A stretch of DNA of 64,000 nucleotides from a virus, in IMG/VR virus record IMGVR_UViG_3300043219_000566, positions 62,001 through 126,000 of that record; one strand, given 5' to 3'. This document shows, piece after piece, positions 7,704 to 42,540 of the stretch. A program made the translations under genes and the position numbers. The notes under the pieces are model-generated. The model saw nothing but the letters and a program-made list of their open reading frames with translations. It did not search any database and was not told the origin of the DNA. How positions within the stretch are numbered: position 1 is the stretch's first letter; the number at the start of each line of letters is the position of its first letter.

Positions 7704-7865
7704 CTAACCTTTACCGTTGCGTTCTTCGTCTGCCGCGTCGTCCTCCGGACGATCGCGCGGATGGACCAGCTCCCGCAAGGCGCGGAGAGCGTTCGTCACC
7801 GGTTCGATTATAAGAACCAGGACAAGCCGGAGCCAAGAGTCAAAGGGACTGTGCAAATTGGACAT
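7704..7865 (-). CDS. Small single-span membrane protein
   Basis: A 53-residue ORF contains an apolar segment WLRLVLVLIIEPVTNALRAL and then a charged tail rich in Asp, Glu, Arg and Pro. Its stop TAG overlaps the ribosome site of the next gene, which supports it as the first member of the small membrane-protein chain. The start at 7865 overlaps the 5-prime end of the divergent terL by 8 bases; the ribosome site is weak. Either the two genes truly overlap head to head or one of the two starts is slightly misplaced. Confidence 0.5.
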   Translation of the reverse strand: MSNLHSPFDSWLRLVLVLIIEPVTNALRALRELVHPRDRPEDDAADEERNGKG

Positions 7866-25473: not shown

Positions 25474-25878
25474 CTAATCCACGATTACGAACCGTTCGCG
25501 TTTCTTGGCTGCTTTCCCGGCGTACGCCAGGACGACGCGCTGAAACGGCTTGCGCTTCGCCGCGCTGACGAAGCCGCGGAGTTTTTGCAACTCCTGCATT
25601 CTATCGTGGTCGTAGAGCCACAGGAAAATCTGAGCGAATCCGTCCAGTATCGAGGCCTGAGCACGTAGAGCCTTGAGCCCGTCGCACTTGGTGCAGTCCG
25701 TATTCAGCGCAGACCCATCGAGCCCCTTCTTCTGCATGAACGTAGCCAGTTCCGTAACCGACGACAGCAGCTGAGCGAACGCCGGGCAGTGCTTGTAGAA
25801 GCCCTTGTGTCCCAGCAACCAGAGCACGTTGCTCTTGTTGCACAGGAAATCATCACTCGACACCCGCGATGTTCTCAT
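25474..25878 (-). CDS. Protein of unknown function with C-x2-C motif
   Basis: About 134 residues, start uncertain (ATG 25878 or GTG 25863), overlapping the end of the glycosyltransferase gene. It has an aromatic N-terminal region (NVLWLLGHKGFYKHC), then CTKC, then a helix and a basic C-terminus (AKRKPFQRVVLAYAGKAAKK). A loose resemblance to 22288-22578 (Cys pair followed by about 30 residues and a K-L-[KR]-x-[FV]-type segment ending in a V-x-x-Y stretch) suggests the same small family. Function unknown. Confidence 0.55.
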   Translation of the reverse strand: MRTSRVSSDDFLCNKSNVLWLLGHKGFYKHCPAFAQLLSSVTELATFMQKKGLDGSALNTDCTKCDGLKALRAQASILDGFAQIFLWLYDHDRMQELQKLRGFVSAAKRKPFQRVVLAYAGKAAKKRERFVIVD

Positions 25879-27817
25879 TGTACCCACGGAGATTAGCGTC
25901 ACTGATCTTGACCCCCTGATACGCCTGCGCAACCCCGTAACCTTGCTGTTGCAGCGCTACGCCCATCCAGATGTCGCCGCCGCGATGCTTGATGCGCGGG
26001 TCAGGCCAATTGGCTGCCTGGATCGCGTCGCGGGTCACCAGCCAGAACCCGCCGGTGCAGAAGTCACTTTTGTCCATCGGCGGACGCTTGGTTTTGTCCT
26101 GGTGAAGCGGGCGACCAGCATACCACCCAGCCTGTTTCAGCCAGTCCCACTGGTTGCCGCGCAGGTGCCAGTAGTACACCTTCCCGAACATGTGGTAGCC
26201 CCGGGGATAACGCGCGTCCTGCTGCAAAAACATCTCATCGACCTTGCTGCCGAGATGCAGCAGCCAGTTGCGATCGACGACATGCGAGTCGTCGTCGAAC
26301 CACATGACCCAGTCGGTCGTCAGCGGAGCCTCGGAGTCGTGGAACATGCGCCGCATCATCGGGTACTTGAAGACCTGCGGCGCGGCCTCGTAGATCCGCT
26401 CGACGTTGGGCTTGTCCTCCAGGAACGCCAGCACCTGCTTACGCGCGTCTTTGGTCGGTTCGTTGAGCGCGTAGCGCAGCTTGAACAAGTTGACGTCGAA
26501 GTGCGCGTAGAGGCTGTTCAGACAACGCAGCGCCAGGTCGGAATGCTTGCCGTAGGTCAAGCCGCACACGGTAATCGGGAACGTCAGGTGCTTGAATTTC
26601 ACCTCGTCCGGGCGCAGCGGAACCGTCGGCTCGCTGGGCCGCTTGCTCGGGCGTGCCTGCTTCGCCTTGGTCTTGGCGATTACAGGATGAGGATCTTGCA
26701 CCGGAGCCGGAGTACCCGCGTTCGGCACCTTCACAATCAAGTCTCTGATCGACGGCATCTGGTTCTCTCCGCAAGCGTGCTTTTCGTATTCCAGAATACT
26801 CTCAACGACTCGATCTACTGTAATCATGTCGAGACAACGCGGCAAAGGCACTCGGGCAGGAGTGTAAACGACGTTGCTGCAATTCTGCTCGGGCTTGCCC
26901 TCGGTAACCCGTGTTCGCCAGCAACCATGGTTCTTGCAGCACTTCAACGCGCCGACGGTGTGCAGGAACTTATGCGGCATGAATGGATGATCTACGAACC
27001 GCGCATCTTGATCCGGGTGCCAAGCCTCCCACTGCTTGGGAGTACCCGGCGGCTTCTTGATCCTCCCGCTAGCAAACGCCATGTTGCGCTGCAACGTCTC
27101 GACGTTGTAAGCCTCCCAGGTGTAGTGCTCGCGCCCGCCTGCGATCACCACAGTCGGCTTGCCGATCGCGGCCGCCAGGTGCATGAAGCAGGTAACCGGC
27201 GTCAGGACACCGCGGGCGTGCAAGCAAAGCCGAAACGCCTCGCGCAAGCTGGTTTTGCCCACCATGCTAAGCGCGCCGTTGAGCGGCGGGTGGTAGTGCC
27301 GCGCGCCGCCGCCGCTGGGCTTTCCGCCGATCTGCACGAAGTTGACTACGCCCTCCAGTCGCTGAATGACCTCCTGGTAACGCGCAGCGTCCCACCATTT
27401 GGTGGTAAAGTCGGCCTTGCCGCCCGAGACAACTACCCAGTAGTCGCCCTCGATCAACGGCTCGTTCAGTTCTTGCGGGCTCCAGTGCAGGTCGGGACGG
27501 AACTCGGTCAGCCGCACCTTCAGGTTGAGTTTCTTGTTCAGATCGTCGATGAAGCCCTGGATAAAATGCAGTCCGCACTGATTGGACCTGTGGATTAGCG
27601 GGTAACCCAGCTTGATTACGTTGGTCGTCTTGCGCGCCAAGTTCGCGATATACGGGTTGTTTTCCCAGACCTCTTTTGCCGTCGTTTCGACGCCGGTGAC
27701 GTACTGGTTGGGGTAACACCGATGCAGATCACGCAGGACCACCGACATCATCATGACGTCGCCTGGTGCTTGCGTATTGCGAAAAATCAGCGACCGGGGA
27801 CTACGTGCGCGCCGCAT
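25853..27817 (-). CDS. Two-domain glycosyltransferase (GT9-like plus GT-A/GT2-like)
   Basis: A 654-residue protein starts at ATG 27817, placed by GAGGGAG 3-8 bases upstream. Residues about 1-330 match a heptosyltransferase-type (GT9) fold: FRNTQAPGDVMMMSVVLRDL at the N-terminus, a WVVVSGGKADFTTKWWD segment and a THFMH-like acceptor region (PVTCFMHLAAAIGKPTVVI). Residues about 405-640 match a GT-A domain: FPITVCGLTYGKHSD, then a D-D-D metal motif at about residue 508 (WFDDDSHVVD) and a GGDIWMG segment. A Pro/Lys-rich linker joins them. Phage enzymes of this kind modify virion proteins, phage DNA or host surface glycans. Placement inside the fibre operon next to serine-run proteins favours virion glycosylation. 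Confidence 0.82.
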   Translation of the reverse strand: MRRARSPRSLIFRNTQAPGDVMMMSVVLRDLHRCYPNQYVTGVETTAKEVWENNPYIANLARKTTNVIKLGYPLIHRSNQCGLHFIQGFIDDLNKKLNLKVRLTEFRPDLHWSPQELNEPLIEGDYWVVVSGGKADFTTKWWDAARYQEVIQRLEGVVNFVQIGGKPSGGGARHYHPPLNGALSMVGKTSLREAFRLCLHARGVLTPVTCFMHLAAAIGKPTVVIAGGREHYTWEAYNVETLQRNMAFASGRIKKPPGTPKQWEAWHPDQDARFVDHPFMPHKFLHTVGALKCCKNHGCWRTRVTEGKPEQNCSNVVYTPARVPLPRCLDMITVDRVVESILEYEKHACGENQMPSIRDLIVKVPNAGTPAPVQDPHPVIAKTKAKQARPSKRPSEPTVPLRPDEVKFKHLTFPITVCGLTYGKHSDLALRCLNSLYAHFDVNLFKLRYALNEPTKDARKQVLAFLEDKPNVERIYEAAPQVFKYPMMRRMFHDSEAPLTTDWVMWFDDDSHVVDRNWLLHLGSKVDEMFLQQDARYPRGYHMFGKVYYWHLRGNQWDWLKQAGWYAGRPLHQDKTKRPPMDKSDFCTGGFWLVTRDAIQAANWPDPRIKHRGGDIWMGVALQQQGYGVAQAYQGVKISDANLRGYNENIAGVE

Positions 27818-27827
27818 AGCTCCCTCG

Positions 27828-28373
27828 TTACTTACCGCAGCTGGAACAGCCCTTGTGCGGCGATCCCGCAGCAGCAGAAGACAACGAGGCCAGTTGACGT
27901 GCGGCCAGACCGTGCACCAGCGTAGCCGCAGCAGCATAAGCTACCGCAGATAGCATCATTGCGAATAGATGTTGCCGCCCGTTGACCGCCAACCAGAGAA
28001 GCAGCGCAGTCCAGAAAAACTGACAAAACGAGCAGCTCGTGAAGTAAATCAGCATGCGCGTTTTCCACGTGATCTGCATCAAGCTGGAGAGATGCCGGTG
28101 CTTGTGTTCGAGCACCGAGGGCTCCAGCGGTATCCGCGCAGCGTTCATATCACCCTGCGCTGCCTCGGGGTTCCACAGTATCTTGTGGCGTAGCTCCCAT
28201 TGCAGCTGTCGGATCAAAGCAGCATCGGTCGTATTGCGCAGCCTGAACCAGCGCAACAGCTCCGTGGCTAAAAACGACTGGAATAAAACCTTGGTCGCTC
28301 CAAGCGTGACGAAGACCCAAACTATCAACGGAACGACCTGATCCATTCCGCGTACATCAAGAACACTCATCAT
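27828..28373 (-). CDS. DUF1360-like membrane protein (second copy)
   Basis: A 181-residue protein starts at ATG 28373 (AGGAG 8 bases upstream, ATGA overlap with the previous stop). It has an N-terminal apolar segment (VPLIVWVFVTLGATKVLF), then SCSFCQFFWTALLLWLAV (C-x2-C-x3-W) and another apolar segment (FAMMLSAVAYAAAATLVHG), ending with CSSCGK. This is the same arrangement as 6882-7328. Co-translation with the glycosyltransferase directly downstream (10-base gap) suggests a membrane partner, perhaps for export or anchoring; this is inference. Confidence 0.7.
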   Translation of the reverse strand: MMSVLDVRGMDQVVPLIVWVFVTLGATKVLFQSFLATELLRWFRLRNTTDAALIRQLQWELRHKILWNPEAAQGDMNAARIPLEPSVLEHKHRHLSSLMQITWKTRMLIYFTSCSFCQFFWTALLLWLAVNGRQHLFAMMLSAVAYAAAATLVHGLAARQLASLSSAAAGSPHKGCSSCGK

Positions 28374-28692: not shown

Positions 28693-31600
28693 CTATTCGC
28701 AAGGATTGTAGGGAGAACAAGTTCCACCCTGCCAAACTCCGCCCATCAGATCGCACTCGCCCTCTCCGTCGACTAAAAAGCACGAGGCTCCCACGCAGCA
28801 AGCGCCCATGTTCTGCTCATCAGGTGACCAGCACGGAAGCGGATTGGTCCAGCTCTCGCACGGGCAGTCGCTGCCGTAATCCTGCCAACCCTGCGGGCTC
28901 AAGCTGTAACTCCGCAGCGTCGGAATACCAGGGCGTTCATCCGGGTATGGTGTGCTCAGCCAAAGATCGCCAGCGAACTCGTTCTCATGGCCCTCGAAAT
29001 ACCGGTAAGCCCGGCCGGAGCCATCGAGGTTCAAGTCCGTGGCAGCCCAGACCCTGTCGCCTTGACACACCGGTTGCATCCATACTGAGCACTCGCAAAC
29101 ATAGCCATCAGCGCAGGCCTGCGACCCCATCCCGCCCAAGTTACTATGGGTAGGTCCATAGTAAAAATTTAGTCCGCCGAGACGTGTTGTTTCGCATAAA
29201 CTTGGTTTTGAAGCGTTAGGATTAGGGTTATCGTACCCAAAGACCTCGACCGGCGGCGGCCAAGTTATCACCTCGGCCAAGGACCAACAGCAATTGTGGC
29301 AAACCCGGCAAGTACCGACAACATCCCACCACGACTGCGCGAGCCCCTCCCAGTAGACTCCCATCACCTCATGGAACCACATCCCGAGTTCCCCCACTGC
29401 CGGAAATAGCTCGCCGCACCCGTACATGTCGCCCAAGCAGTTGCCGCTTGCTTCCTTTCCAGGGGTGCCCGTGCTGACCTGGAACGGGCCTTCAAGCCAC
29501 TCGTGATCGAAGCGCGCTTTGCGAAACGGGCCGCCGTGGTTGCTATCGGGACCGCCGACGCAACGAGCGGGCGTACAGATGAATTTAGACCAGCCTTCGA
29601 CTTGCTCCATACGTACCTCAGCATACACATGTAGCAGGGGCGCATCGCATTCGTACGTCTCCAAATTCCGCCCGACGCAAAGCCTTGAGCGCGAAGACAT
29701 ACCGCACCCAGTGGTCGAACCTACGTTGCAAAACACGTTATGATGTACAGTCCACTCGTCAAAACTAGTTCCAGATACGAACCCTTCGCACGCCGAATAG
29801 CGATAGGCCACCATCCCGCACTGCCCCGCAGCTGGTCCGCCGTGTAATTCCCAGCATTCCGACCACGAAGGCCGACTCCAAGAATCGCAAATAAGCGTCG
29901 GCCACCATTCTTCATATACAACCTCTCCGTTTTCCGCTACTTTCATGTAGAAGCCCTGGTAGTATCCTTCACAGCACATGTGGGACGCGTCAATCGTCCA
30001 CGTTTCGACTTGCTCGATAGTATTCGCGCCGTATGAATGATAGTGCCCGCAGCCCAGTCCCATAAAGGTATCCGGCGTGCGCTTGCGGCTCTTGATTGTC
30101 GATTGAGTCCAAATGCCGTTGGTAATCAGGTATTCGACCGCGTTGATGATCTCCAAGATGTGGGTCGGCGCGATTACGTCACCCGGGCGTAATCCCACTT
30201 CGGCGTACCTGTTAAATATCCTCCCAGAGTTCGCGACAGCCGGTTCGTACCAGCAACGAAACAACGAAGGCATAACTTCCCAAGAATTGCCGCCACCGTA
30301 GAACGGATTCCGCGGTCCGGCTTCCGGGTCGTTGGGGACCCACGAGCGCGGCGGCGGCGCGCCGCTGCGAAAGAGCATGTCGATCCCGCGCCAAGACTTG
30401 CGCGCACGCTGCGAGCCGTGCGCGGGCTCGTCCGGGTGGTTGTGCAGCGGGCGTACGTCGTCCCACGCGGGCGGCTTCGGCTGAGTTACGCTGATCGGAG
30501 TCGGCCTAAAAGCGCCGCCAGGCGGATTAGGACTCGGGGGCGGATTGATTTCAATCTCATCGATCGGGTCCATACCCGCGCCGGTTTCGCCCCACTCGCC
30601 CTTGCCGCCGTGGATGTACTGCGGCCAAGGCGCGGAACCTGACCAGCGCCAGCGGATCGGCATATTCATACAGCAGTAACCATGGTTACTCGTGGGACTC
30701 GGGCGAGTTCGTGGGTTATGGTGCACGATCGTCTGGGCTTCCCAGATATCACCACAAAGATCCTGGTCTCCGCAAGTCTGTCCGACAATGAACGAGAGCG
30801 TAAAGCGCACCATGTTCAGCAACTCGGGCTGGATCGTCTCGGAACCATCGAAGTAGTAGCGGTCGGTTCCCTTGCGGCAGCTATTCAGCATCTCCGGCAG
30901 CCCGCGGCCGTACGGATTGTAGTGCGTAAACCAGGTTACCTTGTGGCGCTGCTCGTGAGACGGCGGAGACGAGCCGCCCGGCTCATAATACCACGTGCCG
31001 CCGACCCTGATTCGGATGTACCAATTCACTTCGGTACCTTGGCTGTACGGGCCAATCGTAGCCGAGTACTCCGGCCCCCCGGTCATCGGAGTCACTTCGC
31101 TGTCGTGAACCAACTCAACCTGCGAAGGTGTTGCCACGCCGCTGGGCTTGCTCCAATGAAACCGGATCTCCTCGCCGTTTACTTCAAAGATATCCGGCTC
31201 GGAACCGAACTCCCCATCCGCGCGCGGGTCACCTCCACCCCCACTGCCCTCTTCGCGCCCGTAGCTGCCGGGCGGAAAATAGGTCGTGTTGTGCTCGCCC
31301 CCAATCAACGCCATACCCGAGTCGCAACTCCGCGGAAGAATCGGGACCTGCGGCAGCGGATGCTGCCCAACACACGAGGGCGCTACATTTCCGATTGCCG
31401 CGTACTCCTTACCGCCGCCAGGAGCCGGGGGATACCCGGTCGGCGTAGCCTCCGCGTAGTCGGAGTAGTCGCAATCGACCAGACCGCCACTGTACGGATT
31501 CGGCTTTGGCGACTCCTCCCAGCTCTCTGGCCCCCACAGACAGCGCGGGTGCGTGCGAGCATGCCACTGCTGCTTCGGCTCGGTATCGTAACGCGGCCGC

Positions 31601-31857
31601 CCGCCCCACAGCGCGTACAGCAGCCCTTCGAGCTGCTCCATCGCTTTGGCGAATTGCCCACCCAGCGTTTCTTCCCAGTTGATCTCGTCCCCGCCCGCCG
31701 GAGGCGAGCCCGCCGGGAGAATGCGCTTGCCGGGGTGCATGTCCGACCACTTCATCGCGTAAGGCCGTTCAGCAACGTTCGGGTGAGCCAACCGCTCATC
31801 GATGTGCGAAGTGGTTCCGTACTGCGTGGGCTCCTCGAAGGTAACGTCGTGCGACAC
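28693..31857 (-). CDS. Large Cys/Trp-rich fibre-region protein with GACC-type C-terminus
   Basis: The product has 1054 residues. It is extremely rich in Trp, Cys, Gly, Pro and Tyr and shows no membrane segment. Residues about 215-300 look like a fibronectin-III or immunoglobulin-like fold. The last 40 residues read GACCVGASCFLV, then a C, then GGVWQGGTC and NPC, a Cys-rich module I recall from planctomycete secreted proteins. Many Cys pairs (for example GHYHSYGANT region, CGMSSRSRLC, CRVCHNCC) imply disulphide stabilisation outside the cell. An extracellular adhesin or tail-fibre role is likely from the neighbourhood. The start at ATG 31857 lies 2 bases after the stop of the upstream gene. 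Confidence 0.75.
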   Translation of the reverse strand: MSHDVTFEEPTQYGTTSHIDERLAHPNVAERPYAMKWSDMHPGKRILPAGSPPAGGDEINWEETLGGQFAKAMEQLEGLLYALWGGRPRYDTEPKQQWHARTHPRCLWGPESWEESPKPNPYSGGLVDCDYSDYAEATPTGYPPAPGGGKEYAAIGNVAPSCVGQHPLPQVPILPRSCDSGMALIGGEHNTTYFPPGSYGREEGSGGGGDPRADGEFGSEPDIFEVNGEEIRFHWSKPSGVATPSQVELVHDSEVTPMTGGPEYSATIGPYSQGTEVNWYIRIRVGGTWYYEPGGSSPPSHEQRHKVTWFTHYNPYGRGLPEMLNSCRKGTDRYYFDGSETIQPELLNMVRFTLSFIVGQTCGDQDLCGDIWEAQTIVHHNPRTRPSPTSNHGYCCMNMPIRWRWSGSAPWPQYIHGGKGEWGETGAGMDPIDEIEINPPPSPNPPGGAFRPTPISVTQPKPPAWDDVRPLHNHPDEPAHGSQRARKSWRGIDMLFRSGAPPPRSWVPNDPEAGPRNPFYGGGNSWEVMPSLFRCWYEPAVANSGRIFNRYAEVGLRPGDVIAPTHILEIINAVEYLITNGIWTQSTIKSRKRTPDTFMGLGCGHYHSYGANTIEQVETWTIDASHMCCEGYYQGFYMKVAENGEVVYEEWWPTLICDSWSRPSWSECWELHGGPAAGQCGMVAYRYSACEGFVSGTSFDEWTVHHNVFCNVGSTTGCGMSSRSRLCVGRNLETYECDAPLLHVYAEVRMEQVEGWSKFICTPARCVGGPDSNHGGPFRKARFDHEWLEGPFQVSTGTPGKEASGNCLGDMYGCGELFPAVGELGMWFHEVMGVYWEGLAQSWWDVVGTCRVCHNCCWSLAEVITWPPPVEVFGYDNPNPNASKPSLCETTRLGGLNFYYGPTHSNLGGMGSQACADGYVCECSVWMQPVCQGDRVWAATDLNLDGSGRAYRYFEGHENEFAGDLWLSTPYPDERPGIPTLRSYSLSPQGWQDYGSDCPCESWTNPLPCWSPDEQNMGACCVGASCFLVDGEGECDLMGGVWQGGTCSPYNPCE

Positions 31858-32258: not shown

Positions 32259-33070
32259 CCAATTCGGCCTCGGTACTTGACGTAAATCGAGCTGCCCGGC
32301 CGCCAAAGAATCGGATGCACGAACCGAGAGTACGCGAGCAACGTATTGCTCGACTGGTCGACCACGAAAGCGATGGTCAACGGAAGCCCCCCGATTTTCC
32401 TGAAATCGCATAGCCATTGCAACTGCGGGTCGTCTTCCGGGTCGTCTTCCCAGGTGTCAAACCAACCCAGCCAGTCGTCCAGGTCTTCCCACGGCTCGGG
32501 GTAATAGCTAGTGCACTTGATCTGGGGCAAGTGCCAAGGGTACCCGAGAGTCACCGCACCCGACTCGGCATGCTCCCAGGGGTAATACCAGCCGCCGTAG
32601 TACGGATTACCGAGCCGCTCGACGATGTCGAGCGTAAAGATATTGTCCCAATCTCCGTGCGGACCCCACGACTGTCCGTTCTTGAACTTGGTCCAAGCCG
32701 ATTCAAAAACACCGCCGTGTGCTTCGCTGAACACGTTGAACCTTAGCGGCCGATGCCCCTCCGGATGACCGGCCGTTATATAGCCGAACGCCCGCCGCAT
32801 CATGTCGTTGAGCCCCGCGCCTTCTTGACAATCGTGCGTCACGTCAGCGTAAGTCAGCGACTCATTCAGCGCATGACCGATACAGCCCCCGTGATTAGGT
32901 CGATTTTCCCGCGAACTCAAATTCGGGCCAGCCAACCCCATTTCAAACGACATCTCGTCGCCGCCCGTGAACACGCGCTGCAGGATCTTGGTAGCCCCCT
33001 CGTACACCAGCGTGTTCGGCAACGTCTGCACCGGGCCGTCTTCGGTGAACTTGACCAAGAACTCGCCCAT
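32255..33070 (-). CDS. Fibre-region protein with N-T-x2-YEG N-terminal motif
   Basis: A 271-residue protein starts at ATG 33070, overlapping the TAA of the upstream gene by one base. The N-terminal part has LPNTLVYEGATKILQRVF and then an M-x-F-x-[MF] stretch; the same pattern (HNTVQYEGFDALGKIMSG) occurs in the gene 45510-46091, so the two share a domain often placed at the end of phage fibre operons. The middle is rich in Trp, Tyr and Gly. Probably a receptor-binding tip or its adaptor. Confidence 0.7.
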   Translation of the reverse strand: MGEFLVKFTEDGPVQTLPNTLVYEGATKILQRVFTGGDEMSFEMGLAGPNLSSRENRPNHGGCIGHALNESLTYADVTHDCQEGAGLNDMMRRAFGYITAGHPEGHRPLRFNVFSEAHGGVFESAWTKFKNGQSWGPHGDWDNIFTLDIVERLGNPYYGGWYYPWEHAESGAVTLGYPWHLPQIKCTSYYPEPWEDLDDWLGWFDTWEDDPEDDPQLQWLCDFRKIGGLPLTIAFVVDQSSNTLLAYSRFVHPILWRPGSSIYVKYRGRIG

Positions 33071-35325
33071 TAGAACGTCCCGCGGTAGTGGCTGCGCGAG
33101 CAGGCATACAGGGTCTGGTTAGACGCGTTCGACACCGTCCAGAACACCACGACATCGCCAGTCACGAGCGCCGACACCCACTGTCCACCGTAGCCCTGCT
33201 CCTCAACGTTCAACATGTTGGAAGCGATTTGCGTACCGCCGGGCCGGTCGATCCATTCAAAATCGGCGTTCATCCAGACCTCGACTGCCGAGTACACAAA
33301 GGGCGGCAAGCAGCCGTACTTGTCCGTGATCCGAGCGAACCGCCCGCCGGTGCCGCCGCTGCCGCCGCCCGGCGTGATAAACAGCCGCAGTTCTTCGTTG
33401 AACGCGCAGTCCCCGGCAAACGGGCCGTCTACCCAGTCCTGCACCGGCAGCGCGCTGTACTCCAGCGAGTTGAGCGGCTCAGCTTCCGAGTTGCCGACAT
33501 CCGAAATGTGATAGAAGTTCACATCCGGGCTGCGCTTGCCGCAGGGAATGAACAAGCTGAGCTGCAGATCGAGATTGCAGTCGTCATCGAACTCGTTCTT
33601 GGCCCAGTGCCCATGCGCCCAGCTCGGTCCGTACGAGTCGCCCCACTGCAGCGAGTTGCGAAACCACTCCAAGTTCTGGTGGATGTTGACCGAGCCCGCT
33701 GGAAGCAAGCTGTAGTACGGATGGTACTCGTAACGATCCGGATCAGCTGTCTGGTAGCGCTCCTGGCGGTCTTTCATGATCAACGATACGAAGGGATTTG
33801 CGAGCAGATCGTCGTCGAGCGAGCGATGCGCGCCGCCTGTCGGACATGGCATATTCAACGACAGATCCAAAATCGGCAGGCACGGAGTTAGCTGCCCGGC
33901 GACTTTACCCTCGCGAACTCGAACAGTGATTTGCGGCCCACCGAAAGCCCAGCTGCGCTCGGGAAAGTCCAAGTCAGCCGGTAGCTCGGTGTAAAAGTAC
34001 GAATCGAGGAACGTCACGTCGCCCGGGACGCTGTCAGTCTCGACCGACACCGGACAAGGCAGATTCAACGCCAACTGCAAATCAGGCGAGCACAGCTCGG
34101 CTCCAGAGCCGGAGTCGTAGAAGTTCACTCGTAGATTGGCTGTTGGCTCCTGCGCCCAAGGCAGCAGACCACCCGAGCCCGAGAACTCGATCGCAACCTG
34201 ACTAGTGGCAGTGAACTCGACTGGGCAAGGGAAGTACAACCGCAGATCCAGACTGGGGTAGCAATCGTCGGCGCATTGCGAAGACGATCCCACTATGTAG
34301 AACGTACCGGACGGTGGCCCCGAGAGAGTATATCGCTTTACGACTTTGAGTTTAGGCGTGTGCCAGTCGACTGGGCAAGGAATATTCAAACTGAGGCCCA
34401 ATTGGAAATCGCAACTGCCGGGAGACTGTTCCGCCCACAGCTCGATCTCCGGTCGCCGGTCAGCCGGAATACAACTGATTTCCTTGCCGTAACTGGTTTC
34501 CTGGGGCGTGATAGTGCCAGGACACGGCAGCGCCATGTCGACTACAAGCTCGTAGTCGCAGCCGCCGGTCCCAGTGACTTGCAGCGTCGTGCCACCGGCA
34601 CCTAACCCAGGCTCATATACAGCAGTTCCGATTCCGCCCGTGAGTCCGGTTGGACACGGCAGACGCAAGTTGAAGGACAACACGAAGTCGCAGGGACCGA
34701 TGCCCGAGGAGCTGTAGTAGTCGTCAGCCGGGATCACCAGCAGCTCGGCCTCTCCTTCGTCGAGCGGGATACTTCCATCGAACTCGACGGTCCCTATGCC
34801 GCCGACCAAGTCGGTCGGACACGGCAAACCGATGCTGAGGCTGATCCCCAGATCACAATCGCCGCTGTCGATCGTCTCCGCTGTACCTCCGGCAGTCTCC
34901 AGCGCCGGGTCGTACTCGACGTCGATGTACGCTTCGGTAAACGAGACGAAACACGGGATCGACAGCTGAAAATCAATGTGGGGCTCGCAGTAGTCGCTCG
35001 TCGGGTAGGTAAGCACAACGCTGAAAGCGTCGGCTACCGCGCTGCTCTGGTTGGGCAAGAACACGCTGCCGGTAACGACCATCGGGTAGCAACCGAGATC
35101 AATCGGCGGAATCGGGATCGGCGGGTCGGTGGGTGTGACAATTGTGTCCGGCGGACCAGGGAAAGCGCACGAGTCGACGAATTCGTAATCGCCGATTTCC
35201 GGGTTGTCAGGCGCGCACTCTTTGTCGAACGCCGCGTCCCCGCGATCAGGACCTTCGCCGACCTCGCCAGCAACCGCGGACGATGACGATGATCCCACTC
35301 CGAGATTCAACGGCCACCAGGGCAT
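33070..35325 (-). CDS. Repeat-rich fibre protein: about nine C-x-L-x-L-PCP repeats
   Basis: The product has 751 residues. A motif C-x3-[LFI]-x-[LF]-x-[LM]-x-[LIF]-P-C-[PFG] occurs about nine times, with first Cys near residues 113, 157, 212, 256, 305, 355, 412, 482 and 578, and a degenerate copy near 641. Spacing is 44-96 residues. The alternation of apolar residues suggests a beta strand closed by a disulphide in each unit, giving an elongated array. A serine run (GSSSSSA) is at residues 11-16. The start ATG 35325 has GGA 8 bases upstream. Function is inferred as a rod-like or receptor-binding fibre; I do not recognise a family. Confidence 0.78.
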   Translation of the reverse strand: MPWWPLNLGVGSSSSSAVAGEVGEGPDRGDAAFDKECAPDNPEIGDYEFVDSCAFPGPPDTIVTPTDPPIPIPPIDLGCYPMVVTGSVFLPNQSSAVADAFSVVLTYPTSDYCEPHIDFQLSIPCFVSFTEAYIDVEYDPALETAGGTAETIDSGDCDLGISLSIGLPCPTDLVGGIGTVEFDGSIPLDEGEAELLVIPADDYYSSSGIGPCDFVLSFNLRLPCPTGLTGGIGTAVYEPGLGAGGTTLQVTGTGGCDYELVVDMALPCPGTITPQETSYGKEISCIPADRRPEIELWAEQSPGSCDFQLGLSLNIPCPVDWHTPKLKVVKRYTLSGPPSGTFYIVGSSSQCADDCYPSLDLRLYFPCPVEFTATSQVAIEFSGSGGLLPWAQEPTANLRVNFYDSGSGAELCSPDLQLALNLPCPVSVETDSVPGDVTFLDSYFYTELPADLDFPERSWAFGGPQITVRVREGKVAGQLTPCLPILDLSLNMPCPTGGAHRSLDDDLLANPFVSLIMKDRQERYQTADPDRYEYHPYYSLLPAGSVNIHQNLEWFRNSLQWGDSYGPSWAHGHWAKNEFDDDCNLDLQLSLFIPCGKRSPDVNFYHISDVGNSEAEPLNSLEYSALPVQDWVDGPFAGDCAFNEELRLFITPGGGSGGTGGRFARITDKYGCLPPFVYSAVEVWMNADFEWIDRPGGTQIASNMLNVEEQGYGGQWVSALVTGDVVVFWTVSNASNQTLYACSRSHYRGTF

Positions 35326-35341
35326 TCATCACGTCCGTTTG

Positions 35342-36232
35342 CTAAGGCGCAGCTGCCGAGCTACTCAGCCCTTCTTTGTCGACCAAGATGAGGCAAAATC
35401 CGGCCGAGACCTCCGTGTCGCTGGCACTCATGTTGGCTCCGCGCACCTTGATATCGGTTCTCTCGTCGAACACGTGCGGAGGAGAGTAGTCATGTTGCCA
35501 TGCCGATACGCCCGCCGCAGCTAGCCCGACGTGCTCCAGCAACCGGAAAGTCTTGCCGAGGTCGCGACGGAATAGCTTGACATCGCCGGTCTTTGACCCG
35601 CCCTTCAAAATCGTCGCCCACCACATCGTCAGCAGAGCGATCTTGCCCGCCGGAACCGTGTAAATCGCCATCAACGTCTGCTGGTTCTCACTCGCGAAGT
35701 AAGCACGCGCATTAACCAGGTCTGTAGGCACGCCGCCGTTGCCCGTAGCCGTGCTATTGATAGCCGCGTAGACGTTGCCCGCGGTCGCCGCCGAGCCGTC
35801 GGAATACATGCGGAAGATACGCTTCCATAGCTTGCCGCTGACCTCGACTGCCGTCTGACCATCAAGCTGGACCGTCGCTTCTTGCGATTCCCAGTTCTCG
35901 TCCAGGCCGACAAGTGTGACCTGGTAAGTCGCGCCGCTATCGCCCGCCTCGTCACTGGAAACGTAGAGCGTCTGCGCTGTTGCATCGTACGTATAATCCT
36001 CAGCGGCACCGTTGATGCCCAGATCCCAGATATCGGCGTCGGTGCCAGTGTCGATTTCCGTGTTCAACCCGAACTTGTGGACCATCGACCAGCCGGAGAT
36101 GCTGTTCTGGCCTTCGATATGCGAGCGCGCGACCTCTATCAAAAAGGGAACGGTAACCTGGTATTGCTCACCACCAAGCTCTAGCCCCGCAATGATCTCT
36201 CCGCCTCTGCCGGGATTAAGTTGTATCGCCAT
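35342..36232 (-). CDS. Virion beta-rich protein (decoration or fibre type)
   Basis: A 296-residue protein starts at ATG 36232 with AGGAG 7 bases upstream. It has the composition and pattern of a group of phage structural proteins found in many environmental phages: E-x-TVQLDGQTAVEVSGKLWKRIFRMY, then AGNVYAAI, and later QQTLMAIYTVPAGKIALLTMW. The C-terminus ends in a serine run (LSSSAAAP). It is beta-rich and has no signal peptide. It lies between the repeat-rich fibre gene and the R-x-YPF paralogue cluster. Confidence 0.75.
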   Translation of the reverse strand: MAIQLNPGRGGEIIAGLELGGEQYQVTVPFLIEVARSHIEGQNSISGWSMVHKFGLNTEIDTGTDADIWDLGINGAAEDYTYDATAQTLYVSSDEAGDSGATYQVTLVGLDENWESQEATVQLDGQTAVEVSGKLWKRIFRMYSDGSAATAGNVYAAINSTATGNGGVPTDLVNARAYFASENQQTLMAIYTVPAGKIALLTMWWATILKGGSKTGDVKLFRRDLGKTFRLLEHVGLAAAGVSAWQHDYSPPHVFDERTDIKVRGANMSASDTEVSAGFCLILVDKEGLSSSAAAP

Positions 36233-36242
36233 CGATATGCTC

Positions 36243-37163
36243 CTACTCGCATTCTTCCATCGACTCACGCCCGGTAATCCGGATCGTATGCTCACTGGGC
36301 GAGACGACCTCTACCCCCCGCCCGCCCTGGATACGGAACGAGCCAGAAGCGTCGGCTTCGACACCGTTGATGTTGGTGATAACCTCATGGCAGCGCGTGG
36401 CACAATCGATGTCGATCGAAGCGGCCCGCCGTTTCAGCTCTGTGTAAGTCCGGGGAACCGCTTCGCACGGCTCGCCCAGCCCGGCCCCGCGCCGCGCGCT
36501 GAAGCGCATTGCGTTGTTGCGCGACAGCACGTTGATCTGGCAGTTGTATCCCTCACGGAAACGCACGTCACCCGCAACTGCTTCGCCGCCCGGCGCGAAC
36601 GGGTACTGCTCGGGGTTGATCGACACGCTGGACGAACTGGACCCCTGTTCCGATGTTGCACAATTCGCCGTGGTCCGCGGCTGATTAGCCACCAGGAACT
36701 TGTTGACGAAGTGGCCGTCGACTACCTGCAAGCAACGCTGCTCGATGTACGGCACCGTCAGTGGAGCCGAACCGATCAGCGCCGAGTAAGAATAAGACCC
36801 AGAAGAGTACGGATTACCGTGCACCACCCAGCCGTAGCCATGCTGCACGCCGTCGGCCACAAGCAGCAAGTCCGAACGTTGCCAGGGGTAGGTGCCCTTG
36901 TCCGTGGCCAAAGACACGCCGTCCACGGCAGCTCCGGCAGCGTAGATCTCGAAGGTAAGTTGGCTAGCGGGGCCGACCTGGCTTAGCAACACACGGTGCT
37001 CTGGATCGGTGGGATCGAAGCCGGAGCTGGAGAACAGCACCAACCCGAAATCCACGATGGTGAGTCGCTGATTGTCCGGGACCGCAACGATCCCGCTTAC
37101 CGACTCGTCGATCAGCGGGTAGTTGCGATTCAAGTTCCGGGCGTAGAAATCAGCGTCGGCCAT
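36243..37163 (-). CDS. R-x-YPF family fibre protein, paralogue 1
   Basis: A 306-residue protein starts at ATG 37163 (TGATG overlap with the upstream gene, GGAG upstream). The N-terminal motif is RNLNRNYPLIDE, the shared start of five neighbouring proteins. The central part has a serine run (GSSSSSVS). Near residues 250-280 it has TNINGVEADASGSFRI, matching INGV/INGI segments in the paralogues at 38242, 41139 and 42541. This gives a two-part layout: variable beta-rich body, then a conserved INGV region. Likely surface-exposed fibre or baseplate-attached protein. Confidence 0.72.
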   Translation of the reverse strand: MADADFYARNLNRNYPLIDESVSGIVAVPDNQRLTIVDFGLVLFSSSGFDPTDPEHRVLLSQVGPASQLTFEIYAAGAAVDGVSLATDKGTYPWQRSDLLLVADGVQHGYGWVVHGNPYSSGSYSYSALIGSAPLTVPYIEQRCLQVVDGHFVNKFLVANQPRTTANCATSEQGSSSSSVSINPEQYPFAPGGEAVAGDVRFREGYNCQINVLSRNNAMRFSARRGAGLGEPCEAVPRTYTELKRRAASIDIDCATRCHEVITNINGVEADASGSFRIQGGRGVEVVSPSEHTIRITGRESMEECE

Positions 37164-37984
37164 CAACCCTCTCCGAAGAAGAACATCCTGATCCCGTTCG
37201 GAATCGGGACAACTCGCAGCGCCGGTTCTTGCGCGTAATTCTCGATGTACCCGACTAAGAGCTGGACAGTCCCGGAACCATGCGGTCCGATATTCTCCTC
37301 GTCAAACTGGATTGTCTTGAGCAAGCGATCACGTTCTACCGGGGCACCTTCGGCTTCGCAGTCTCGGCGTACGAACAACGGATCGCCTACCACATCGACC
37401 CTGATGATCTCCTCCCAGCCGTGCCAGACGCCGAACTGACCACCCAACGACGAGGACGAGCCGTCCTGGTTCACAACGGTCAGCTGTACGCCGTTCTCGC
37501 CGACCAGGGGGACGTCGCCGTGAAAGATCTCGCCGGACTCCAGCCGCACGGTGCGTACGCAGGCTTGAGGCTGCGGTACAACCACCGTAGCTGCGAACCG
37601 CGTTTGTGGCATCTGGAAGGTGTAGGTCCCGTCGGGCCAGCCAGCGAGCTTGGACAACCCGCGGTCGCCCACCGGGTAGCCCAGCAAGCAACCTAGATAG
37701 ATCTCCCCGTCGGCGAAGAAATCGACCCAACTCGGTGGAGCATTGCGAGTGAAAGATCCGCTGCCGAGCGCCCCGCGTCCGTCGGACAAAGAGATTGTGA
37801 CCTGTTCGCCGACTTCGATAGACGCGATGAACAGATCGTGTCGTCCGCCCGGCGGGTAGAGACGCCCGTCGATAAAGACATCGTTCTCGATAGCAACCTG
37901 CCCGTTGGTGCGCGTAGCGCTAGGGTCAAACGGGTAGGCCGTATCGACGGACTCGTCATAATACGTTGGCAGCGTGACTCGCAT
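37163..37984 (-). CDS. R-x-YPF family fibre protein, paralogue 2 (short, no INGV region)
   Basis: A 273-residue protein starts at ATG 37984 directly after the palindrome 37986-37997; no good ribosome site is visible, so coupling or a structured leader is likely. The N-terminal motif is SVDTAYPFDPS. Residues about 35-50 contain VFIDGRLYPPGG. A run of four serines (DGSSSSLGG) is near the middle. It lacks the C-terminal INGV part seen in the other paralogues. Beta-rich; function inferred from family and location only. Confidence 0.65.
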   Translation of the reverse strand: MRVTLPTYYDESVDTAYPFDPSATRTNGQVAIENDVFIDGRLYPPGGRHDLFIASIEVGEQVTISLSDGRGALGSGSFTRNAPPSWVDFFADGEIYLGCLLGYPVGDRGLSKLAGWPDGTYTFQMPQTRFAATVVVPQPQACVRTVRLESGEIFHGDVPLVGENGVQLTVVNQDGSSSSLGGQFGVWHGWEEIIRVDVVGDPLFVRRDCEAEGAPVERDRLLKTIQFDEENIGPHGSGTVQLLVGYIENYAQEPALRVVPIPNGIRMFFFGEG

Positions 37985-37985
37985 C

Positions 37986-37997
37986 GTAGCGCGCTAC
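37986..37997. repeat. Palindrome GTAGCGCGCTAC (copy 4)
   Basis: Fourth copy of the palindrome. It provides the TAG stop of the small membrane-protein gene 37994-38230 and lies one base before the start codon of the next gene at 37984. Confidence 0.8.
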
Positions 37998-38230
37998 GCT
38001 TTCTTTCCTTTCTTCGCTACTGGCGGAGGCGCAGTCTTGTACGGCACGGCTTCCTCGGACGTCACCGAGTTGTCGCGCGCGACCAGGAAACCCGACCCGG
38101 TGAGCGCGACCATGACGGCCTCGATACTGAAGGTCGTGTCAGCGTTCCCGTCCATCAAGTAGTAGACCTGCAAGGCTACTGCGCTGATGATCAACAAGAC
38201 GCCTGCTAGCGTAGTTCTCCAACTTTTCAT
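37994..38230 (-). CDS. Small membrane protein with ARDN-x-VTSE motif, possible holin
   Basis: A 78-residue protein starts at ATG 38230 with GGAG 5 bases upstream. It has a basic N-terminus (MKSWRTTLAG), an apolar segment (VLLIISAVALQVYYLMDG) and a second one (VMVALTGSGFLVARDN), followed by SVTSEEAV and a Lys/Pro tail. The pattern MKSW-x-TT-x-x-G plus ARDN-x-VTSE is widespread in small phage proteins of unknown role; two membrane segments and a charged tail would fit a holin. It is encoded in the middle of the fibre cluster, unlike usual lysis cassettes. Confidence 0.7.
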   Translation of the reverse strand: MKSWRTTLAGVLLIISAVALQVYYLMDGNADTTFSIEAVMVALTGSGFLVARDNSVTSEEAVPYKTAPPPVAKKGKKA

Positions 38231-38241
38231 GATTTCTCCAA

Positions 38242-41139
38242 TCAACAGTCGAGCCACGGCAGCTTGTTCGCCACAACGATGTTCAGCTCTCCCGCGGTAG
38301 GTGATGCCGTGAACTCCGTCATGCGAACCTCGCCACCAAAGACGTATAATCCTGGCGGACCGTCAGCGAAGTAGAGCGACGAAACTGAGGAGCCGTCCCA
38401 CTCGCTTTTGTTGGTCACCAGCAACGTAGGTTCACCATACTCGACAGGTATCGTTTTTGTCAGATAACCGCCTGACGACGATAACAGCGGACCGAGGTCA
38501 ACAGGATTCAGCCACGCCGCAATGCTGTACTTGCCCGCGGCCTCCGTAACCCGCACCACCAACCGATGCCACGCTGTCAGCCAATCGGCTCCTGCGTAAG
38601 CGCTGATGTCTTCCCACTGGGCATTGAACACATGCGGCGTACTGTGCATGCCGTAACCGAGCCGCCGACCGACGATGTCGACCAGCATGGCCCAGAAACT
38701 GTGGCGCGTGTCGCCCTGAAATCCAATCGCTAGCCCCACCCTGGGATTGCCCGTCGCGTACTTGAACGCCAGCGAGAACAGGTAGTCGTCGACGACGGTG
38801 CTCTCGCACTTGAGAATCGCGTACTGATGATTCGCGCCGCCGCCCGCGGTGTCGAGATACTGGCGGCCGAAACGCAACACGTCGCTGCCGTCCACGTAGA
38901 ACAGCTGCGGGCTGAAGAAGTTGTTGCCGGACGGCAGCCGATTGAACTGGTCGTTGGCTCGGCCGGTACCGAAATCGTTCGACCAGCCTTCTTGATCCGC
39001 GTCGTACTTGAGCGCGTAGGCCACATCGCCGGGATCGTGGTTGAAGTCTTCCTCCAAGCAGGCTTGCTTCTCCCACTTGTTGCTCTGCAAAAAGATCTCG
39101 CTCAAGTGCAATCGCACCGGGTCCAACGCATGCAGCCCAGCCGAGCTGCTGCTACTACTGCTACCCTGGCCGCGCTGGCACGAGAGATCCACGGAGAAGA
39201 ACCGCATCTCGGTTTCCAGCAAATTCCGCGGCGCAGAAAAATGCCCGCCCCACGCATGTCCATCCCACTGCTCCCACAGCGGGTGATACGTCGTCAGTTC
39301 CCAGCACCACATAGTCTGCGAGCCCGCAGCACTGCTGCTGCTCCCGCGAGTGCTGCTGGACGAAGACCCTTGCGTCGGTTGTGTCGACGACGAACTACCG
39401 TACCGGTTGCACTTCCAAATCCGGAAGCTGAAATGCTGTTCGAGCCAGCCGGTGTCGCGCGGGACCGGAAATTCCCAGCGAGAGCTGGACGAGTTGTACG
39501 GGAATCCGTACCAGCTAGAGCTGGACAAAGCGTAATACTGCTCCAAGCACGGCCGCCACTCTCCGCTCGGTGGAACCCAATCGCACCAAGCCGGGCTGTA
39601 GCTCATCGAGCGCGGCCACGAGACCGGGTCACCCCCGTGACCGTAGTCGACTAGTTCGGTAGGAACGTCTTCCCAGCCGTTGCCGATGTTGTACTGCGGT
39701 ACCCACTTCACGACAGCAGCATTGAGGTTCGGCAATCCGGTGTGCTGGTACTCCAGCTTGAGACGAAAGCCTCGCTCCGCGGAGTCGCCAAACTGCTCGT
39801 TGCCCAACATGAGATAGAGAACACGCGCTTCGTCGTTCGACGCGGCAGGCTGCTCCGCTAGCGCCAAGATCTCATCCCAGCTCAACCGCCAGTAACCCTC
39901 GAACTCGAAGGAATCGCCTATCTCGGTGAGTTCGCACTTCCAGCGGTTATTGCGCAACGCACGCGGGTATGCCTCTGCAGCACTGACTCGCCGCCAGGGA
40001 ATCTCAAGGTAGTCGTCCACGATCTTGAAGTCTTCGGCGGGCTCGCTGAACGGGACCGGCTCCCCGACGATCAGACGATGAGGCTTCCAGTGCAGTTCAT
40101 GGACTCCGTCCTCGAACAACGAGAAATCAGCCACCTCGTCCGGGCTGGAGAAATCGTAATGCCGCGTCGTCGGACCAGCTGTGCTGGACTCCGCCGGAGG
40201 CGATGGTCCACTGCCCGACGACCCGGGCTCTGGCTCCTCTCCGGCACCCGACAGCGACGAGTCGCACTGGTCATACGGTATGGGCTCGGGTTGACCGACT
40301 GGCGCGCACACGTCGTCGTAATCGATCGGCGTCATCAGCACGATACCCAACGCGCCCTCGTCGTCGTCGGGCGGGTTATCCAGCTCGCCATGCAGCACGC
40401 CGTTGGTATCGTCGATCTCGATCGTAATGACCCCGGCATCATCCGGCGTGACACCGTTGATATCTCGGATCGCAGGACGATCACAGGTGTCGCTCTCCGG
40501 ACGCTTGCCGCAAGGTCCCATGAAGAACGAGTACAACCCCGGCAGTTGCTCGGGATCGAGTCCGAAAATCACGCAACGCTGATACTCGTTGCCCGCGTAA
40601 CGATAGCCTGCCTCGATGGACAGATTGCTGCCCGCCAGGAACCTGACGTTTCCAGTCAACTCGGCCGAGGAATTCTCTTTTCCCAACGAGCGCACCGGAT
40701 ATGCCTGATAGGCTTGCGCGACGCGCGGAAGCAATTGAGCATTTTCGTAGTTGTCGAACCGCCAGGTATTCACGCCCGTTAAGCTGGCGGGAATCTCGCC
40801 AACGGCCGCCCAGCCTCCTACCCCCGGTTGCATGGCCTGCAATTCCTGGCTTTTGTAAGCAACTTCGGGACGCGAGACCTGAAGCACTGCTAGCACAGTT
40901 ACGACGTCGGTGACGGTGTTCCTCGCGGCAAACGTCATGGTGACCAAGCCGGGGCTCACGGTAACGGTGGAGACGAACCCGACGTCTCCGTAGCTGTCCG
41001 GCCACCACAGGTGACAGTCGTTCAGGACGAACTCGGGCAGCACTCTGCCGTCGGCATCCCGCAACGATGCAAGGTCCGCGAACGGATAGACGCGCACGTC
41101 GTTGAGATTTCCAAAATCGTGTTGCACGATACCGGGCAT
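38242..41139 (-). CDS. R-x-YPF family fibre protein, paralogue 3 (long, many serine runs)
   Basis: A 965-residue protein starts at ATG 41139 (TGATG overlap with the upstream gene). The N-terminal motif is LNDVRVYPFADL. Residues about 240-260 contain IRDINGVTPDDAGVITI, the shared INGV region. The rest, about 650 residues, is extra: beta-rich segments separated by serine runs (SSSSSTR, SSSSAAG, SSSSSSSAG and others), including a stretch around residues 700-900 that looks like a jelly-roll lectin fold. It is the largest of the five paralogues and probably the main adhesin. Confidence 0.75.
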   Translation of the reverse strand: MPGIVQHDFGNLNDVRVYPFADLASLRDADGRVLPEFVLNDCHLWWPDSYGDVGFVSTVTVSPGLVTMTFAARNTVTDVVTVLAVLQVSRPEVAYKSQELQAMQPGVGGWAAVGEIPASLTGVNTWRFDNYENAQLLPRVAQAYQAYPVRSLGKENSSAELTGNVRFLAGSNLSIEAGYRYAGNEYQRCVIFGLDPEQLPGLYSFFMGPCGKRPESDTCDRPAIRDINGVTPDDAGVITIEIDDTNGVLHGELDNPPDDDEGALGIVLMTPIDYDDVCAPVGQPEPIPYDQCDSSLSGAGEEPEPGSSGSGPSPPAESSTAGPTTRHYDFSSPDEVADFSLFEDGVHELHWKPHRLIVGEPVPFSEPAEDFKIVDDYLEIPWRRVSAAEAYPRALRNNRWKCELTEIGDSFEFEGYWRLSWDEILALAEQPAASNDEARVLYLMLGNEQFGDSAERGFRLKLEYQHTGLPNLNAAVVKWVPQYNIGNGWEDVPTELVDYGHGGDPVSWPRSMSYSPAWCDWVPPSGEWRPCLEQYYALSSSSWYGFPYNSSSSRWEFPVPRDTGWLEQHFSFRIWKCNRYGSSSSTQPTQGSSSSSTRGSSSSAAGSQTMWCWELTTYHPLWEQWDGHAWGGHFSAPRNLLETEMRFFSVDLSCQRGQGSSSSSSSAGLHALDPVRLHLSEIFLQSNKWEKQACLEEDFNHDPGDVAYALKYDADQEGWSNDFGTGRANDQFNRLPSGNNFFSPQLFYVDGSDVLRFGRQYLDTAGGGANHQYAILKCESTVVDDYLFSLAFKYATGNPRVGLAIGFQGDTRHSFWAMLVDIVGRRLGYGMHSTPHVFNAQWEDISAYAGADWLTAWHRLVVRVTEAAGKYSIAAWLNPVDLGPLLSSSGGYLTKTIPVEYGEPTLLVTNKSEWDGSSVSSLYFADGPPGLYVFGGEVRMTEFTASPTAGELNIVVANKLPWLDC

Positions 41140-42530
41140 CAACTACCGCCTTTGTTCGTGTTGCTGATCAGCTGCACGTTTGCCTGCAGCACGGAAGGCT
41201 CCGTGGCCGCGCATGCCAGCACCGAAGCGTCGATTTGCACATTAGCGTCCTCGACCCGGTCAGGACCGCTGACGCGCACCGAGAACGTGAACAGCTTGTA
41301 ATGCCCGCCTTTGATGGCAGAGTTGTCCACGAAAGTGTAAGTCCCGTCGCCGTTGTCAGTCGGGTCTACCTGCCCGTAGTTGTCCTGGGTGTTGTAGACC
41401 ATCCCGCTGCCAGGAACGTACTCGAACGTGTAGTCGCCGCCCGCGAACGAGATATCGACCGTCGCGCCTTCCTGCAGACAATCCTCCATGTTGCCGACCC
41501 AGACCTGGATAGTGACCAGCCAGCCAGTGAAGGCGTAGCCGAACAGCTGCGATACGCAACCTTCGCCCACGCACGCGACCCGCAGGTCCCATTCGGCCTT
41601 AGTAGTTTCGTAGGCCGCGAGCACGTCCGCCCAGATATCCTTGATAGCCAGGCCCTCATCCTTCAGCTGCCGGATGTGTTCCAGCAACTCAGAGAAATCG
41701 TCGCACTGACAGCAAGCCCGGCAGTCGTTGTGGATCTTGATCACGAAGGGCCGCGGCTCATTTCCGACGATGCGACGATGAATTCGGTAGCAGTCGTCAC
41801 CGGCGATAAAGAAGTTCCCCTCGTCACCAGCGATCTGATTGATCGTACGAATCTCGGCCAACGAACCGCCGCAATCCGTTTCGAGTTTGCCAGTACCCGC
41901 GCCAGGAATAGCGCTGATCTTGATCCTCCGAACGTCCGGGCGCAGCACAGACTTGGTTAAATCGCGCGCGGTAGTCAACGGCGTAGACGGGTCTACTTCG
42001 AGCTGGATATTGGTCCCCTCGATCAGCTCGCCGATCTCGCCCAGATTCACCCAAGTTCCGGCCGTAAGCCCGATGGAATTCACCCGGGCGGGTTGACGAC
42101 CGATGCAGCGAGGCACGAACTCCGGATAGGGCGAGGAGAACTCGATTGGCGAAGACGCGGTAGACAGCGGGCTGTAATCGTGATTCAAGACGAGCGTAAG
42201 TGCCAGACCTTCGTCCTCGTCGGTGTAAACCAGCACTCGGTAGTCGCCGATTACGCTGTTGGAAGTCGGCGTAACATCGAGAAGCGCGCCAGTTTCGGTG
42301 TTGTAGAGCACCAAGTCCCAGGACGACGCCGGGTCCAGGCTCACGAAGCGCCAATGATAATCGTGGTCCTCGTCGGCGTTGTCCGATCGAAAAGTCAGGT
42401 AGGCGTCCAGGAAAAACGGTCGGGGATCGTTGGCCTGGTAGGGCGCACTGAGAGTTAGGTCCGCGGCATCCGTAAACGGATACGCGCGGCTCTTGTTGCG
42501 CTCCAGCCACTCGCCTTCCATGCCCGGCAC
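41139..42530 (-). CDS. R-x-YPF family fibre protein, paralogue 4
   Basis: A 463-residue protein from GTG 42530 (GAGGA 6 bases upstream) or ATG 42521. The N-terminal motif is WLERNKSRAYPFTDA. The INGV region is changed to RTINQIAGDEGNFFI at about residues 225-245. It then has a Cys-rich stretch HNDCRACCQC, a helix and a C-terminal beta domain (GATVDISFAGGDYTFEYVPG) resembling an immunoglobulin-like or invasin-type fold. It contains short serine stretches (STASSP). Likely baseplate-proximal fibre. Confidence 0.72.
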   Translation of the reverse strand: MPGMEGEWLERNKSRAYPFTDAADLTLSAPYQANDPRPFFLDAYLTFRSDNADEDHDYHWRFVSLDPASSWDLVLYNTETGALLDVTPTSNSVIGDYRVLVYTDEDEGLALTLVLNHDYSPLSTASSPIEFSSPYPEFVPRCIGRQPARVNSIGLTAGTWVNLGEIGELIEGTNIQLEVDPSTPLTTARDLTKSVLRPDVRRIKISAIPGAGTGKLETDCGGSLAEIRTINQIAGDEGNFFIAGDDCYRIHRRIVGNEPRPFVIKIHNDCRACCQCDDFSELLEHIRQLKDEGLAIKDIWADVLAAYETTKAEWDLRVACVGEGCVSQLFGYAFTGWLVTIQVWVGNMEDCLQEGATVDISFAGGDYTFEYVPGSGMVYNTQDNYGQVDPTDNGDGTYTFVDNSAIKGGHYKLFTFSVRVSGPDRVEDANVQIDASVLACAATEPSVLQANVQLISNTNKGGS

Positions 42531-42540
42531 GTAATTTCCT

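Follow-up and report, generated by a model that had tools for sequence, protein, structure and literature searches.

We describe a probable phage tail-fiber protein whose shaft appears to consist of ten tandem β modules, each carrying a conserved pair of cysteines and none joined by collagen. The protein (751 aa, ATG start) is encoded on the minus strand of the analyzed window, a 64-kb stretch corresponding to bases 62001-126000 of a 216,501-base virus record. In our preferred reading, which we consider probable, it is a tail-fiber-type shaft in which each module is likely closed by a disulfide between its two cysteines (designated Ca and Cb) formed after lysis. At the level of sequence, modules and collagen interchange in one gene slot, and the module cysteines are paired and conserved. 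Since relatives use modules, collagen, or both at the same position, we regard this protein as a sulfur-stapled, collagen-free version of a known kind of fiber.

An earlier note on this DNA had reported about nine recurring motifs in which a cysteine, a hydrophobic strand, and a Pro-Cys step follow each other. We found nine such C-x11-C motifs, starting at residues 113, 157, 212, 256, 305, 355, 412, 482, and 583, with a Cys-to-Cys spacing of exactly 12 in all nine and Pro preceding each second Cys; eight of these residue numbers agree with the note, and the ninth replaces its value of 578. The strict regular expression is matched by eight of the nine motifs, the one at 256 having Val at one strand position, and PCF and PCG stand in place of PCP at the ends of the first and last motifs, respectively. 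Among 20,000 shuffled versions of the protein, seven contained one strict match and none contained more, far below the eight observed, and the strict motif is absent elsewhere in the window in all six frames. The count of nine holds for motifs, while the note overlooked that the array begins at C79 and closes with a degenerate tenth unit, C640 AFNEELRLFITP, which has no second Cys. Pfam and PHROGs gave no match to the protein as query, nor did viral contigs or a set of 50,697 phage records, and PDB sequences gave noise only. It has no Pfam match to the collagen triple helix repeat (PF01391) and contains no Gly-X-Y collagen, neither the protein nor its module set matches Phage_fiber_2 (PF03406) in Pfam, and a Pfam scan of 45 single modules returned sub-threshold noise only.

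Relatives were obtained by scanning with the motif pattern. In viral contigs, such a scan gave 69 matches, mostly single chance matches, with real arrays in L026 and L005, and a further pattern added L073/L074 and L081. The lone match of the first viral pattern (the CD form), in L002, lies in the wrong frame and was discarded. Two scans of bacterial genomes gave 0 and 71 matches, and the latter, in which no repeat array occurs, are taken as chance. In the L026 protein, a collagen-like stretch (Pfam Collagen, 2e-14) comes after nine copies of the motif. The protein of L005, about 2,470 aa long, combines similar repeats with long collagen and matches PHROG tail fiber proteins (to 3e-113), and its modules-only stretches match minor tail PHROGs (E 1e-11). 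Some L026 modules carry additional Cys and hydrophobic inserts; two modules at L026:4340-4700 (+), whose hydrophobic insert is CPQAYVLPVLPQLLQVILPQFF and which also have additional Cys, fall outside the standard module. The fiber of L081/L090 (L090:1130-2354, plus strand) has three Cys modules and then different repeats (TLEDITLSGLQTIDGV..DDIVLVKNQ), which are a possible receptor-binding part.

The relatives reveal the true repeat unit. The spacing from Cb to the next Ca, 12 in the target, is 15, 18, 21, 35, or 56-108 in relatives, and most linkers following Pro are 0, 3, 6, or 9 residues long, in phase with collagen triplets, many of them being of Gly-X-Y type. For example, IGPIGP, IGPIGPIGL, or long collagen stands between the motif's Pro and second Cys in L005, and the corresponding inserts are AGP in L073, P or GF in L081, and QINVP in L192. 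The second Cys always stays joined to the following CPQ... segment, and in L073 each lone module amid collagen has precisely two Cys, which directly precede strands 1 and 3, respectively. Because the second Cys travels with the next module and lone modules keep two Cys, the unit runs from Ca through Cb to Pro, and the motif on which the earlier note had drawn its unit boundary spans a module junction, its two Cys belonging to adjacent modules that inserted collagen separates in relatives. As parsed from these sequences, the module is Ca-b1-loop-b2-Cb-x3-b3(LxLxLxI)-Pro. Under this register the target has ten modules with 10 cysteine pairs, from 79/113 to 595/640, and no orphan Cys in the array. 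Both Ca and Cb are present in all 49 modules parsed in five proteins, although these modules were found partly by their Cys; a scan of the same five proteins without the Cys requirement found no Cys-less strand-3 motif, its sole entry, in L073, being a module from the existing count read in a shifted register. In L189, one module keeps Ca and has Phe at the Cb position. Comparison with relatives shows that no Gly-X-Y linkers are left between the modules of the target.

The direct orthologue on another contig, L202, is 34% identical to the target over 724 aligned positions (BLASTP) and 40% overall. It also lacks collagen, has the same C-terminal domain, and has one module fewer, so that C157 and C169 of the target fall in an alignment gap. 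Against this 40% identity, 22 of the 24 aligned target Cys are kept (P = 1e-7), including C285 and C351, which may form an eleventh pair, although this is a guess. Both lost Cys are in the C-terminal domain, and all 20 aligned array cysteines are kept, which indicates that the array pattern is under selection. Members of the family share an N-terminal segment in which Cys and Pro are spaced, with similar C..P..C..P starts, and this segment probably serves for virion attachment; the C-terminal domain of about 100 aa is a possible fiber tip. The modules and neighboring genes are listed below.

Table. Map of the probable fiber protein and of genes near it (window positions)
Feature	Position	Strand	Basis or remark
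Whole ORF, probable tail-fiber protein, 751 aa	33070..35325	-	Motif analysis and gene-order orthologues
Residues 1-78, poly-Ser start, then family N-terminal segment FDKEC..GDYEFVDSC..PP	35092..35325	-	Alignment with L202 and L090
Module 1, residues 79-124, Ca C79 / Cb C113	34954..35091	-	Module parse
Module 2, residues 125-168, Ca C125 / Cb C157	34822..34953	-	Module parse and L202 alignment
Module 3, residues 169-223, Ca C169 / Cb C212	34657..34821	-	Module parse and L202 alignment
Module 4, residues 224-267, Ca C224 / Cb C256	34525..34656	-	Module parse and L202 alignment
Module 5, residues 268-316, Ca C268 / Cb C305, extra conserved C285	34378..34524	-	Module parse and L202 alignment
Module 6, residues 317-366, Ca C317 / Cb C355, extra conserved C351	34228..34377	-	Module parse and L202 alignment
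Module 7, residues 367-423, Ca C367 / Cb C412	34057..34227	-	Module parse and L202 alignment
Module 8, residues 424-493, Ca C424 / Cb C482	33847..34056	-	Module parse and L202 alignment
Module 9, residues 494-594, Ca C494 / Cb C583, long Ca-Cb insertion	33544..33846	-	Module parse and L202 alignment
Module 10, residues 595-652, Ca C595 / Cb C640, last, no Cys after	33370..33543	-	Module parse and L202 alignment
Residues 653-751, Gly-rich hinge and C-terminal domain, common to L202	33073..33369	-	L202 alignment
phrog_8198 protein, between landmark gene and fiber gene	35342..36295	-	PHROG match
Conserved upstream landmark gene (GLGEPCE..INGV protein)	36243..37166	-	Beside fiber gene in five phage records
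Conserved upstream gene (LVGEDGV..RVDVVGDPLF protein)	37163..37984	-	Used as query to find 19 loci
Gene containing Glyco_transf_9	25853..27937	-	Homologue also 3' of fiber gene in L026

Structure prediction with AF2 gave a poor single-chain model for target modules 4-5 (pLDDT 49). Two L073 modules were modeled better (single chain, pLDDT 71), with three strands in each module (7-16, 23-29, and 40-48, then 56-65, 72-78, and 89-98). From the motif, the module parse, and the relative's model, the target modules fit a three-strand type of about 40-50 residues that ends in a hydrophobic [IL]P. Compared with viral models by Foldseek, the L073 model matched mostly phage collagen, tail-fiber, and appendage proteins (best E 3e-5), and no significant match was found in the PDB.

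The genomic position of the fiber gene is conserved. The L026 gene is surrounded by homologues of the window proteins 38242-41142, 37163-37984, 36243-37166, and 25853-27937, and the landmark homologue adjoins the repeat or fiber gene in five of five records, the window having one extra gene between. A search with the VVGDPLF gene gave 19 loci (L184-L202), nearly all with a collagen fiber, Cys modules, or both just downstream, L200 being unclear. Collagen only is found in L185-L187, L193, and L194, Cys modules only in L184, L188, L192, and L202, and both together in L189-L191, L195-L199, and L201. These counts refer to sequences and not to independent events, since several contigs share overlapping or nearly identical sequence (L189/L190, L198/L199/L201, and also L073/L074). 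The target lies two genes downstream of its VVGDPLF gene, with the phrog_8198 gene inserted, and shares the N-terminal segment, as do the fiber genes of this group, and its cluster adjoins the genes for Baseplate_J and a gp25-like wedge protein.

Several other features of this region were recorded. In cyanophage S-RIM44, the phrog_8198 homologue lies between the genes for the small and large terminase subunits, whereas here it is inside the fiber cluster. The Glyco_transf_9 protein, which may decorate the fiber, has a long second half; its L026 homologue is 31% identical over its length, and it has no match in the phage records. Five neighboring proteins at 36243-43482 (-) share an N..R.YPF start and look like paralogues, and their gene order is kept in other large phages. 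Downstream of the fiber gene, 28693-31857 (-) encodes a 1054-aa Trp/Cys-rich protein with 43 Cys and no Pfam or PHROG match. Ser runs (SSSS to SSSSSSS) occur in many tail proteins, both at 22571-46172 (-) and in L081/L090. The large terminase (7717-9912, plus strand) is 28% identical to those of Salmonella phage Arash and Vibrio phages D69, D148, and D181, and, judged by this protein, the searched phage collection contains no cultured phage close to the group.

The modules appear to belong to a wider family. Through a weak match (E 0.6) we reached gp43 of Gordonia phage IDyn, in which a module GPSVGFQIGSVTTSPSGGAASVSI..NKILNFTLPRG has the same strand pattern as the relatives' modules (V.IGSVTT....AAVSI....ILNF.LP) but lacks Cys and has collagen-like triplets on both sides. 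A profile of ten Cys-free actinophage modules matched the relatives' Cys modules at 92.7% over 40 columns in hhalign, and none of 200 column-shuffled controls scored as well. The target modules match those of relatives at 90.9%, over only 20 columns around Cb and strand 3, and do not directly match the Cys-free set (0.3%); the link from the target to the Cys-free set thus runs by steps. Accepting these steps, the target module would be a variant, with a conserved Cys pair, of the module that stands beside collagen in many phage fibers. The known collagen-associated modules have no Cys pair and stand singly between collagen, whereas ten consecutive modules, each with Cys, follow one another in the target, which has no collagen. 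We found no open paper on Cys modules in phage collagen fibers.

How the cysteines are used can be read in several ways. The earlier note had proposed a rod of small disulfide-closed β units in which the two Cys of each C-x11-C motif pair. The tandem β array is retained, and disulfides are probable given that the Cys are conserved and paired, while the proposed partners and unit limits are not. The invariant spacing in the target speaks for bonds within the motif, but we judge them highly improbable: in the L073 model, with Ca at 3, Cb at 37, and the next Ca at 52, a single straight strand of nine residues runs between them and would hold them about 30 A or more apart if extended; the fixed spacing is lost in relatives, with no Cys directly after Pro in 45 of 90 modules parsed in twelve proteins; and such pairing would leave orphan Cys in the target (C79 and C640), in L005 (16), and in L073 (10). 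It is less far-fetched, though still unlikely, that Ca and Cb bond between the chains of a trimer in the manner of a cystine knot, so that each module would covalently cross-link the fiber around its axis. Next to Gly-X-Y triplets, at the ends of collagen helices, interchain cystine knots are common, and Ca directly follows such triplets in relatives; moreover, the virion of phage Milano is locked by interchain disulfides, including those from fibers to baseplate (PMC10811340). The Ca-Cb spacing of about 30-45 residues with a two-stranded segment fits closure within one chain better, however, and the strand limits of the L073 model would bring Ca and Cb approximately face to face, provided that strands 1 and 2 make a hairpin.

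Phage assembly is cytoplasmic, and the reducing cytoplasm raises the question of whether the cysteines stay reduced, as buried core residues or as metal ligands (e.g. zinc) at module junctions. A search of six records from this phage group found no gene of the thioredoxin family, which agrees with this reading and also fits, without proving, oxidation after release. Paired and strongly kept Cys are a usual mark of disulfides, however, and the retention of Ca/Cb in L202 is of this kind; the existence of Cys-free module versions further argues that Cys is not needed for the fold core. We therefore rate reduced cysteines as rather improbable. The protein could also belong to another virion appendage, for example one that decorates the baseplate or neck or forms a whisker decoration, with the same modules serving as a spacer. 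It has no Pfam or PHROG match of its own, and the best fold match is annotated as a preneck appendage; against this, the orthologues that occupy this gene slot match tail fiber PHROGs and the cluster adjoins baseplate genes, so that this assignment seems unlikely, about on a par with interchain bonding. The note's term "virion protein" can be narrowed to a probable tail-fiber type, presumably located in the tail.

Under the preferred reading, with bonds within each module, the protein is of the tail-fiber type and belongs to a large tailed phage whose set of baseplate genes is myovirus-like. The N-terminal segment would fix the protein to the virion, the ten tandem β modules would form the shaft, and the C-terminal domain its putative tip. 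One Ca-Cb disulfide per module would close the base of the hairpin of strands 1 and 2, with oxidation presumably at lysis, when the virion enters an oxidizing environment. The rod would thus be stapled by its disulfides, which would make it rigid and protect it against unfolding and protease attack, and fiber length would be set by the number of modules and by the amount of collagen added or omitted. The assembly is probably trimeric, since orthologues carry collagen triple-helix sequence; because the target itself has no collagen, trimerization is the least secure part of the model.

Comparison with known systems puts these features in context. That a disulfide-built protein would be unusual for a phage assembled in the cytoplasm, as the earlier note held, is too strong a statement, as disulfide-locked virions are known: the tail of Agrobacterium phage Milano, also cytoplasm-assembled, has many disulfides, found by structure and mass spectrometry (PMC10811340). 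The bonds described for Milano join different sheath, tube, baseplate, and fiber subunits, whereas tandem Cys modules do not figure in the available text of that report (PMC10811340). The lateral tail fiber pb1 of T5 is a trimeric rod of β subdomains joined by rigid linkers (PMC12750041); by this description its rod is like that proposed for the target, while Cys pairing is not mentioned for pb1 in the text available (PMC12750041). In collagen-like prophage fibers of E. coli (EPcl proteins with Phage_fiber_2 repeats), non-collagen modules and collagen shafts are combined (PMC3368898), and the target differs in having neither a PF03406 match nor collagen.

We tentatively propose, as a possibility short of even likelihood, that disulfide-closed modules replaced the collagen triple helix as the length-setting rod in one group of large phages, so that this gene slot alternates between equivalent materials. 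Being small, regular, and Cys-paired, the module could serve as a designed rigid rod. If the proposal is right, phages swap collagen for disulfide-stapled β modules in the same fiber gene. The loci would then provide a natural series for asking what role collagen plays in phage fibers, and a clean system for studying when and how disulfides form in virions that are assembled in a reducing cytoplasm.
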